Under the pieces are notes generated by a model. The model did not search any database. It saw nothing but the letters and a program-made list of their open reading frames with translations, and was not told the origin of the DNA. Position numbers and translations under genes: made by a program. A stretch of 37,059 nt of DNA, taken from contig RQOS01000028.1 in NCBI GenBank assembly GCA_008373205.1, forward strand, positions 1 through 37,059. The letters run 5' to 3'. This document shows, in pieces, positions 13,445 through 26,909 of this stretch (positions are counted from its first letter, which is position 1; each line of letters starts with the position of its first letter). The stretch is from SAR202 cluster bacterium. GTDB lineage: Bacteria; Chloroflexota; Dehalococcoidia; Lucifugimonadales; Lucifugimonadaceae.

Positions 13445-13547
13445 TAAGATTTCCCTTAAGTATATTTAATATCTTTTAGAAATTAGAATATAGTTTATAT
13501 CTTATATTTCGTATTATATATTATAGAAAACAACAATTAGATAAATT

Positions 13548-14249
13548 ATGTCTGAAGAAAATTTAAATTATTTTGAAATACAAAAGTATGATACTGAAAT
13601 CTTATCTTTTCAGAAAGAGATTTCTGCCATTGAAGAAAAACTAAAAGAACAAATGGGGTTGGAAGAACTTAAACAAAAACTTTCAATGATACAGAATAAA
13701 ATTGAAGAGCAAGAAAAAATTCAAAGAAAAATATTAACTTCAATAAAGGAAAATGAAGAGTCAATTAACAACATAAATACTACTATATATTCAGGAAAAA
13801 TAAGAAATAATAAAGAATTAGAAGCACTTCAAATAGAAATAAACACCAAGACAGAATTTATTTCAAATATTGACCCCAAAAAGCAAATTGTAGCAAATAA
13901 TATTATAAAACTAATTGGTATTAAGGAAAATGCAGAACTTAAGATTATAGATACTGAGGATAAATGGGTTTTAGAAGAACAAAAATTATTTAAACAAAAG
14001 AAAAGCCTTTCTCAAAAAATAGAATTGAATATAAGTTCAAAAAAAAATATTTCAGCAAAACTAGATAAAAACATTCTTAATCTATACGAAAACTTTCTCT
14101 CTATTAGTGGAGGCGTAGGTATAGGTAAATTAGAAAATAATAAATGCTCATCTTGTAAAATTGAACTTCCAAATGCATTTGTAGAGAAAATAAAATCTTC
14201 AGAAAATCCTATTATATGTAATTGTGGTAAATCTTTAATTTCGGAGTGA
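13548..14249 (+). CDS. Coiled-coil protein with C-terminal C4-type zinc ribbon (DUF164/CdsZ-like)
   Basis: A 233-residue protein whose first ~165 residues are almost entirely charged helix (repeated Glu/Lys heptads), followed by a small C-terminal zinc ribbon. This is the architecture of the bacterial zf-RING_7/DUF164 family. The metal ligands appear to be C200 and C203 (KCSSCKIELP) and C224 and C226 (IICNCGKSL); the second knuckle is CxC rather than the usual CxxC. Family members are widespread and of poorly defined function. The recombinase-like gene starts 5 nt after its stop, so the two are probably co-transcribed. Confidence 0.75.
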   Translation: MSEENLNYFEIQKYDTEILSFQKEISAIEEKLKEQMGLEELKQKLSMIQNKIEEQEKIQRKILTSIKENEESINNINTTIYSGKIRNNKELEALQIEINTKTEFISNIDPKKQIVANNIIKLIGIKENAELKIIDTEDKWVLEEQKLFKQKKSLSQKIELNISSKKNISAKLDKNILNLYENFLSISGGVGIGKLENNKCSSCKIELPNAFVEKIKSSENPIICNCGKSLISE

Positions 14250-14254
14250 ATTAA

Positions 14255-15373
14255 TTGAAAACATTAGCCTTACTAGAGGATCTAGATAGCTCAGAAGAGA
14301 AGAATAAATTAATAGATTATTGCAAGTATGAAAATTTAGAAATTGATATTTTTTATCAAAATAATAATATTAATGAGATAAAGCTTCTTATAAATTCTGA
14401 TGAAATATCTAAAATTATTATTTCTTCTCCAGCATCTCTAGATAATGATTTATTAGGATTTTGTAAAAAAATGATATCTTTAATCGATCTAAAAATTTTG
14501 ATTTTCTGTGCTTCATATGATTTTCCTGATCCTTTTCAAAATGCAATACGAACTTTACCTTATTTTGGTAATAGTCCTCAAAGAATATCGAGAATTAAGG
14601 AGTCTATAAATAAAAAAGCCTCAAGAGGACAAGTGTTGGGAAAAATTCCCTTTGGTTATAAAAAAAGCTCATCTAGTCTTTTTATTGTTGAACAAAACCA
14701 AGCTGATGAAATAAAAAAAATATTCAGTATTTTTTTAGAGAATAAATCAATTAATAAAACCGTAAATCAATTGAATGAATTTAGTTCAAGGAAATGGTCA
14801 TATCAGTCAATAAAACATGTTCTACAAAATGATTTTTATATCGGAAATTATAGAAGATATAACATTCTTATTCCAAACTCACATGAACCTATAATTAATA
14901 ACACAATCTTTACAGCGGTATCTGATGAAATAAATAATAAAGTAAGTAGAAAATATAAAAAAAATTCTTGGAACAAAATTTTATATTGTAAAATTTGTGA
15001 CTCTAAATTAGTTACCACAAGTCATAAAAATTATTGGTATAACAATGGACAAAGAAAATCTAAAAGTTATAAATATTACTCTTGTAAAAATATAAATTCA
15101 AAAGATAAAAATTGTAAATCATTAAGTATAAAATATGAAAAACTCAACTCATTGCTAGAGGAAAAATTTTCAGGATATAATTTTTTTGATCAAAAGTATT
15201 CAGATAAATATTTGTACAAAATTGTTTCTGAATTAACTTCAGGAAAAATTGATTTTTCTGAATTTAAGTCAGAATTCAAAAAATTAGTTTTTTATCTTGA
15301 TAATTCACAAAAAGTAATCAAGAAAATTTTTGTGAATAAAGATTCTAAAGAAATTATTTTAAGTTCATCATAA
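14255..15373 (+). CDS. Serine-recombinase-like protein with degenerate catalytic domain
   Basis: A 372-residue protein starting at TTG 14255 with GGAG 8 nt upstream. Residues 111-230 match the recombinase domain of large serine recombinases: an E-helix-like ISRIKESINKKASRGQVLGK, IPFGYK, then the segment with WSYQSIKHVLQNDFYIGNYR. A recombinase zinc ribbon follows with C245, C248, C277 and C287. The N-terminal ~108 residues look like a decayed resolvase domain: the expected RVS catalytic motif is replaced by the LLEDLDSSEEK region, and the DRLxR arginines are absent (SSPASLDND). No phage genes, inverted repeats or att-like repeats surround it. It sits between a zinc-ribbon gene and RNase P RNA. 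I infer a DNA-binding protein without recombination activity; a fast-evolving active enzyme is less likely. Confidence 0.72.
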   Translation: MKTLALLEDLDSSEEKNKLIDYCKYENLEIDIFYQNNNINEIKLLINSDEISKIIISSPASLDNDLLGFCKKMISLIDLKILIFCASYDFPDPFQNAIRTLPYFGNSPQRISRIKESINKKASRGQVLGKIPFGYKKSSSSLFIVEQNQADEIKKIFSIFLENKSINKTVNQLNEFSSRKWSYQSIKHVLQNDFYIGNYRRYNILIPNSHEPIINNTIFTAVSDEINNKVSRKYKKNSWNKILYCKICDSKLVTTSHKNYWYNNGQRKSKSYKYYSCKNINSKDKNCKSLSIKYEKLNSLLEEKFSGYNFFDQKYSDKYLYKIVSELTSGKIDFSEFKSEFKKLVFYLDNSQKVIKKIFVNKDSKEIILSSS

Positions 15374-15380
15374 TTTAGTT

Positions 15381-15386
15381 TATAAT
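15381..15386 (+). promoter_or_regulatory. -10 box of the RNase P RNA gene
   Basis: A perfect TATAAT ends 14 nt before the first base of the RNase P P1 helix, placing the transcription start near 15393. The -35 position (about 15358-15363) is only a weak match. It lies just after the stop codon of the recombinase-like gene, so RNase P RNA can be made from its own promoter. Confidence 0.55.
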
Positions 15387-15396
15387 TAGGATATTG

Positions 15397-15753
15397 GGTT
15401 AAAGAAGGACGAGTGATCGCTGATATTTATATCAGAGGAAAGTCCGAGCACCACTAGGAAAAGTGCCTGCTAACAGCAGGGCAAGGCGACTTGACGGAAA
15501 GTGCAACAGAAAATATACCGCCAATTTTTGGTAAGGTTGAAATGGTGAGGTAAGAGCTCACCACTTAATTTGGTAACAAATAAGGTATGGTAAACCCCAC
15601 TTGGTGCAAGGCTAAATAGAGGAGCTTAGTTTCCTAGACTGCTCCCGGGTAAGCTGCATGAGCTAATTGGTGACAATTGGCCAAGATGGATGATCACATA
15701 TACTTTTAAAAGTTAAAAGTAGAACAGAACTCGGCTTATAGTCCTTCTTTACC
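15397..15753 (+). ncRNA. rnpB: RNase P RNA (bacterial A-type-like)
   Basis: Catalytic RNA that matures tRNA 5' ends. The P1 helix is perfect: AAAGAAGGAC (15401-15410) pairs with GTCCTTCTTT (15741-15750). Conserved region I is GAGGAAAGTCCGAGCACC from 15435, the central GAAAGTGCAACAGAAAATA / ACCGCC block lies at about 15499-15523, and the 3' conserved ACAGAA (15724-15729) with GGCTTATAG follows. The overall length, about 350 nt, is usual. The convergent D-aminoacylase gene ends at 15765, only about a dozen bases beyond the RNA. Confidence 0.95.
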
Positions 15754-15764
15754 TAATCGCAATA

Positions 15765-26162: not shown

Positions 26163-26909
26163 ATGAATAAAATTTATTTAGGAAAAAAAGTTTATATCTT
26201 TGAAAAAGTGACATCTACCATGGATGTGTCGAAAAGACTTATAAGTAATCAAGTTGATGAAGGAACTGTAGTTGTTTCAAAATTTCAAACCAATGGTAGA
26301 GGTAGTAATAAAAGAGAATGGCATTCAGAAGGAAAGGATGCACTATTTTCACTTATCCTCAAACCTGACGATAAGTATATAAATTTGTTATCTGTACTTA
26401 CAGCTTTTTCAATATCTAAAGTTTTGGAAAAATTTATTGATACTGAAATAAAAATCAAATGGCCAAATGACGTGTTGGTAGGAGGTAAAAAAATTTCTGG
26501 AGTATTAATTGAAAATTACATAAAAGAGGAGAATTATTCTGTTATAGGAATTGGTATAAATGTAAATTCTAATCATAATAGAAATAACTCTTTTATTTAT
26601 CCATCTGTAAGCCTTAAAGAAGTAATAAAAAGAGAAATTTCTACTTATGAATTAATTAATCATATAATTTTGGCATTCGAAAATGACTTAAATGATTATA
26701 TAGCTGGGAAAATTAAAATCTCTGAAATATCGAATAAACTTTTTGGTTTAAATCAAAAACTAACCTTTAGAACCAATTATAAAGCCTTAGATAAAAAAGC
26801 AAAGAATTCTGAATACAAAATAATTAAGTTAAATGATGATGGAACTTTATTAGTTTCAGATAATCAATGCAATAAATTTTCACTAAATGCTTCTGAAATA
26901 GTAATTTAA
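26163..26909 (+). CDS. birA: Biotin-[acetyl-CoA-carboxylase] ligase BirA, without DNA-binding domain
   Basis: A 248-residue enzyme that activates biotin with ATP and attaches it to carboxylase carrier domains. The biotinyl-5'-AMP loop is NGRGSNKREW (usually GRGRxxRxW), followed by IKWPNDVLVGGKKISGVLIE and GIGINVN. A short SH3-like C-terminal domain follows (LNDDGTLLVSD). There is no N-terminal helix-turn-helix, so it is a class I ligase that cannot act as a biotin repressor. No Shine-Dalgarno precedes ATG 26163; a TACCAT box lies 6 nt upstream, so leaderless translation is possible. Confidence 0.92.
   Translation: MNKIYLGKKVYIFEKVTSTMDVSKRLISNQVDEGTVVVSKFQTNGRGSNKREWHSEGKDALFSLILKPDDKYINLLSVLTAFSISKVLEKFIDTEIKIKWPNDVLVGGKKISGVLIENYIKEENYSVIGIGINVNSNHNRNNSFIYPSVSLKEVIKREISTYELINHIILAFENDLNDYIAGKIKISEISNKLFGLNQKLTFRTNYKALDKKAKNSEYKIIKLNDDGTLLVSDNQCNKFSLNASEIVI

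Follow-up and report, generated by a model that had tools for sequence, protein, structure and literature searches.

Non-catalytic homologues of large serine recombinases in Dehalococcoidia: probable domestication of an integrase as a DNA-binding regulator

Serine integrases are enzymes of mobile elements and are also used as genome-engineering tools. Large serine recombinases (LSRs) such as A118/LI Int, SPbeta YokA, Bxb1, and phiC31 share one order of parts: a resolvase-like N-terminal domain (NTD), a recombinase domain, and a four-cysteine zinc ribbon with a coiled-coil insertion. The αE helix is the dimer interface of LSRs, and the half-site of an active LSR is about 25 bp long. The recombinases of programmed rearrangements (SpoIVCA type, XisF) are LSR relatives in the service of the cell, and they act by cutting DNA. 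A predicted inactivated serine recombinase, exapted to an obscure role, has been described in Vaccinia virus as F16 (PMC4304020).

The family described here, designated dLSR for non-catalytic LSR homologue, shares domain order and fold with the large serine integrases. Unlike them, it lacks the Ser/Arg set of the active site, resides in a chromosomal operon instead of an att/cargo context, and has a longer zinc-ribbon hairpin and a shorter coiled-coil region. It differs from the SpoIVCA-type enzymes in lacking the residues for cutting; its likeness to F16, a viral protein of eukaryotic hosts with no operon parallel, is one of role. A full-text search of open papers, which is no proof of absence, returned no earlier report of the family.

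The gene studied lies in the window, i.e., the whole 37,059-nucleotide stretch of SAR202 cluster bacterium DNA that was analysed, at 14255..15373 on the plus strand; it encodes 372 amino acids and begins with a TTG codon 5 nt past the stop of a zinc-ribbon gene (13548-14249). The initial annotation recognized a recombinase domain plus a zinc ribbon in one protein, and profile searches agree: PF07508 (Recombinase) matches residues 149-227 (E 6e-13), the recombinase zinc ribbon residues 242-304 (E 4e-4, under the curated cut-off), and the PHROG 95 integrase family residues 112-310 (E 6e-34). XisF of NCBIfam matches weakly, and the weak Pfam hits Tap-RNA_bind and Erf4 were dismissed as chance. 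PF00239 (Resolvase) has no Pfam match in the protein or in the source genome (82% complete), where dLSR is the sole PF07508 match. Both PF07508 and PF13408 were found in 77/77 family members. The resolvase-fold NTD, devoid of catalytic residues and with the DRLxR position replaced, covers residues 1-100 (14255..14554, +); it is followed by the strongly conserved DNA-binding recombinase domain (residues ~125-230; 14627..14944, +), the zinc ribbon (residues ~238-300; 14966..15154, +) with ligands C245/C248/C277/C287 and a lengthened beta hairpin, and a shortened helical hairpin that replaces the LSR coiled coil (residues ~301-372; 15155..15370, +).

An AlphaFold2 model of the window protein (pLDDT 88.5) displays the full LSR architecture. 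Over residues 1-372 it matches SPbeta integrase with Z 15.9 and 313 aligned residues, the rmsd of 12.0 reflecting a different domain placement; its N-terminal part matches the catalytic domain of TP901-1 integrase (3bvp; Z 10.6, 114 residues, 3.9 Å), and the C-terminal domain of A118 integrase is matched with Z 16.1. In this model dLSR retains the three-domain LSR fold, comprising the NTD, recombinase domain, and zinc ribbon. The outer Cys-to-Cys span of the zinc ribbon has a median of 42 aa (ordinary LSRs: 33), and the length after the last zinc cysteine a median of 138 aa (ordinary LSRs: ~200; window protein: 86). In the window protein, DSSP assigns the terminal hairpin to helices H313-328 and H334-349. 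A long coiled coil is still present in the model of the Tepidiforma protein. In neither model is the αE helix continuous: it is broken into H93-100/H108-123 in the window protein and into H108-118/H126-138 in that of Tepidiforma.

It had been proposed from the window sequence that the NTD has lost the catalytic serine and the DRLxR arginines. This is borne out when the protein is aligned with gamma-delta resolvase and with ordinary LSRs, the serine and both arginines being absent; the genome-derived LSR controls agree with the resolvase sequence used. The loss, however, is not local to one genome but common to a class-wide family. Among 108 aligned members, Arg68, the first arginine of DRLxR, occurs in none (His occupies this position in 71/110 alignment rows), Arg71 in three, and Ser10 in nine, never together with Arg68 or Arg71. 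No member retains more than two of the four residues Ser10/Arg45/Arg68/Arg71, and position 10 is varied (D, N, T, K, Q, L, and others), with no consistent substitute. The borderline sequence L187 also turned out on alignment to be a dead member of the family. By contrast, ordinary LSR controls from the same phylum (24, representing 23 distinct sequences) have the arginines in 24/24 and the serine in 23/24, reading Y-R-S-D-R-x-R-R at the catalytic positions. The one exception, L177 (G635), has G at position 10 and a frame start that looks garbled, and was retained as an ordinary LSR with reservation because its arginines are kept. As far as residues can tell, all members of the family have a dismantled active site, and dLSR is an LSR homologue by fold but not an LSR enzyme.

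Nor does the window gene stand in a phage or att context, as was noted at the outset: no att-like direct repeats flank it, apart from AT-rich matches, its neighbours are of housekeeping type, and its relatives occupy a conserved chromosomal operon without att flanks. These observations make it very improbable that dLSR remains a working recombinase whose active site is rearranged and non-canonical. The intact overall LSR architecture would suit such an enzyme, as would the retention of Tyr6 in most members and of D36 or R8 in about half, but the nucleophile and both DRLxR arginines are lost over 108 members with no consistent residue at position 10, the coiled coil is shortened, and αE is broken.

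What has been preserved lies elsewhere in the protein. An alignment of 77 members shows no variation at the zinc ligands C245, C248, C277, and C287, nor at W181, N192, Y195, R201, W261, Y272, Y274, and Y275. Counting from the zinc cysteine places Y272 at Tyr297 of A118 integrase, which makes a major-groove contact (PMC3783163). The DNA-binding domains (recombinase and zinc ribbon) are the best conserved parts of dLSR, with a mean top-residue fraction of 0.65; the NTD reaches 0.49 and the C-terminus 0.42. The lengthened hairpin of the zinc ribbon (window residues 249-276) is near-invariant class-wide, reading GVTRRQ-W-x-RKDG...YRYYQCQS, and has drifted in the window genus.

Selection is purifying: dN/dS (NG86) is 0.06-0.31 overall, with dS saturated in several pairs, and 0.03-0.42 over the first 100 codons, again with some dS-saturated pairs; the low values in this region indicate that even the dead NTD is under constraint. 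The reading frame is open in the collected members. Contigs end within the dLSR gene in several relatives (G003:C86/C88, G004:C5, G021:C45), and the apparent truncations in G003 and G004 are merely such contig ends, without mutations. In G004, G045, G052, and G427 the RNase P RNA gene (rnpB) was not found, and three of the four also have no dLSR match; together with the contig ends, it looks as if the locus assembles poorly. That dLSR is no more than a neutrally evolving remnant of some ancient prophage, persisting only through its housekeeping-gene flanks, is scarcely credible: the missing catalytic residues, the patchy class distribution, and the fast divergence of the window genus would fit a relic, but open frames, purifying selection that includes the dead domain, and class-wide invariant DNA-binding residues do not.

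A dLSR match was found in 52 of 60 genomes of the same genus, family, and order, nearly all at one location. In a 400-genome sample of Chloroflexota, profile scores were bimodal (>270 bits for dLSR, <170 for other LSRs), and members above 270 bits were confined to the class Dehalococcoidia. With a 77-row profile, 133 of 294 class genomes carry one dLSR and none carries two; the figure of 133 is approximate, because the calling threshold of at least 208 bits was chosen once the score gap was visible, and a catalytically intact LSR (204 bits) and two partial matches of the family (~180) score near it. Hosts include SAR202 cluster bacteria, other Dehalococcoidia, Dehalococcoidales-type MAGs, and the cultured Tepidiforma flava. 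As many lineages are without the gene, it is dispensable. In a quick IQ-TREE tree, one branch (SH-aLRT 98) separates 43 dead proteins from 24 others, which suggests a single origin of the family. The dead lineages closest to active LSRs are of the Tepidiforma/Dehalococcoidales type; the window genus forms a long branch and diverges fast, and such long branches make the inner placements uncertain.

Four catalytically intact LSRs (L189, L190, L191, L192) form a small clade most similar to the dLSR family, and the gene of L191 adjoins AbrB-like and PIN-type genes. Two hosts in this clade, G662 and G633, carry the intact LSR plus a dLSR copy. Such coexistence, along with the retained LSR DNA-binding domains, could speak for dLSR as an integration shield that sits on an attB-like site and blocks related active elements. 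This role is nevertheless distinctly unlikely, for in the source genome dLSR is accompanied by no further LSR or resolvase, dLSR loci revealed no conserved att-like site, and the expectation that the most dLSR-like active LSRs would be located beside rnpB was disproved, as neither rnpB nor the zinc-ribbon gene is adjacent to them.

The zinc-ribbon gene that precedes dLSR (13548..14249, +) is the first of the operon and encodes a COG1579, CT398/FlgZ-like coiled-coil protein with a C4 zinc ribbon; the window copy gives a weak Pfam hit, while its same-position relatives match CT398_CC (1e-11 to 1e-19) and Zn_ribbon_9. It belongs to the COG1579/DUF164 proteins, which are not dLSR homologues. Among these, RpoN is the target of FlgZ (HP0958) and CT398 (CdsZ), and an association with promoters, and possibly with RpoD, is described for Wcw_1456 (PMC3372290, PMC6426960). 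COG1579/DUF164 genes are reported in neighbourhoods with RNase H and, in Borrelia, with rnpB (PMC3372290); the text consulted mentions no serine-recombinase neighbour.

The initial annotation had placed dLSR in an operon with a C4 zinc-ribbon gene beside RNase P RNA. The first part holds without exception: in 76/76 loci with enough sequence, COG1579 precedes dLSR in the same orientation, with a gap of at most 60 nt in 69 loci and mostly of 0-13 nt. The second needs qualification. In the window, class A rnpB is found at 15401..15754 on the plus strand (RF00010, 303 bits, E 1.5e-98), and it was beside dLSR in 16/16 loci scanned first and in 7/11 subsequent loci with usable flanks. Over the 76 loci, with its presence judged by a conserved core motif, it follows dLSR in the same orientation and at no more than 2.5 kb in 55 (~72%). 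RNase H intervenes between the two in Dehalococcoidales-type MAGs, and Tepidiforma and about a quarter of the loci keep COG1579-dLSR with no rnpB nearby, which makes COG1579 the better partner candidate. Moreover, in 9/10 inspected genomes with rnpB and without dLSR, COG1579 lies within ~3.3 kb upstream of rnpB, in some loci with RNase H between them. Since dLSR-less genomes keep the pair, the older locus was presumably COG1579-(RNase H)-rnpB, with dLSR inserted after COG1579, and the adjacency of dLSR to rnpB would be inherited from it.

A direct tie of dLSR to RNase P, by control of rnpB transcription or as an accessory factor bound to RNase P RNA, is unlikely for these reasons and because an ordinary RnpA is encoded elsewhere in the genome, although the proximity in 55/76 loci, and in most order-level loci, does favour it. 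So does the position of a TATAAT -10-like box of rnpB (15381..15386, +; a consensus match only), which starts 8 nt past the dLSR stop. The box is kept in seven same-genus genomes, and any -35 element would fall inside the dLSR coding end; in an alignment of close relatives, the dLSR-to-rnpB intergenic DNA is conserved chiefly at the rnpB start. That dLSR substitutes for the RNase P protein was rejected, given RnpA and the LSR fold.

Other window neighbours tested were genes for pyruvate kinase, an amidohydrolase, an enolase-superfamily enzyme, and an Hsp70 protein. In L063-L066, L071, L073, and L090, a dihydroorotate dehydrogenase-like gene, named by sequence appearance, follows dLSR instead of rnpB. 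A biotin protein ligase-type gene is downstream in 16 dLSR loci (L092, L094, L095, and others); the window has one at 26163-26909, ~10 kb from rnpB.

The operon promoter presumably lies in the divergent intergenic region between the pyruvate kinase and zinc-ribbon genes (13445..13547). A shared operator was not found upstream of the operon: 54 non-redundant upstream regions were enriched in k-mers of sigma-70-type -10/-35 boxes only, and inverted repeats of at least 7 bp were absent from one well-conserved clade. In L076, L077, L080, L082, and L084, a promoter region of ~75 bp upstream of the zinc-ribbon gene is well conserved while synonymous sites are saturated; it contains no inverted repeat of at least 7 bp and is possibly the footprint of divergent promoters or of a regulator. 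No sigma-54 match was obtained in the 82%-complete source genome, so the partner was rejected as an RpoN chaperone and the FlgZ-RpoN precedent is not literally transferable.

The domestication suggested by the initial annotation is well supported as a non-catalytic one, in view of single copy, synteny, clade-wide conservation, and purifying selection, the marks by which exaptation was judged. The DNA-binding or regulatory role that went with it is deduced from the conserved domains and operon context; with DNA-binding parts preserved, the active site destroyed, and the operon retained, dLSR probably now works for its host as a regulator that binds DNA. The reading we favour, with rather better than even confidence, is that dLSR is exapted and non-catalytic, binds DNA sequence-specifically, and acts together with the zinc-ribbon protein. 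Early in Dehalococcoidia, a mobile-element integrase may have become stranded downstream of the COG1579 gene and upstream of RNase H/rnpB, lost cleavage, and been kept for sequence-specific binding. A dLSR dimer would bind a bipartite site via its recombinase and zinc-ribbon domains, the split αE helix counting against dimerization, and the bound protein would act as a transcription factor or a DNA-architecture protein. By analogy with COG1579 relatives that act on sigma factors or promoters, the co-produced partner might be an adaptor linking dLSR to RNA polymerase. Autoregulation of the operon, or control of rnpB, is possible. A more specific proposal, conceivable though doubtful, is that dLSR and COG1579 are joined in a class-specific complex that regulates transcription (or binds RNA/DNA), with the integrase recognizing sequence through the lengthened zinc-ribbon hairpin; as the hairpin is conserved class-wide, the target would then be deeply conserved too, for instance rnpB, other stable-RNA genes, or the promoters of these genes.

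Class-wide, single-copy, catalytically dead, and in a cellular operon, dLSR would provide a clear example of integrase exaptation in bacteria. The family may also provide natural DNA-binding LSR scaffolds without cutting ability, and the cultured host Tepidiforma makes its function testable. For Dehalococcoidia, the abundant marine SAR202 bacteria included, dLSR represents a candidate regulator family.
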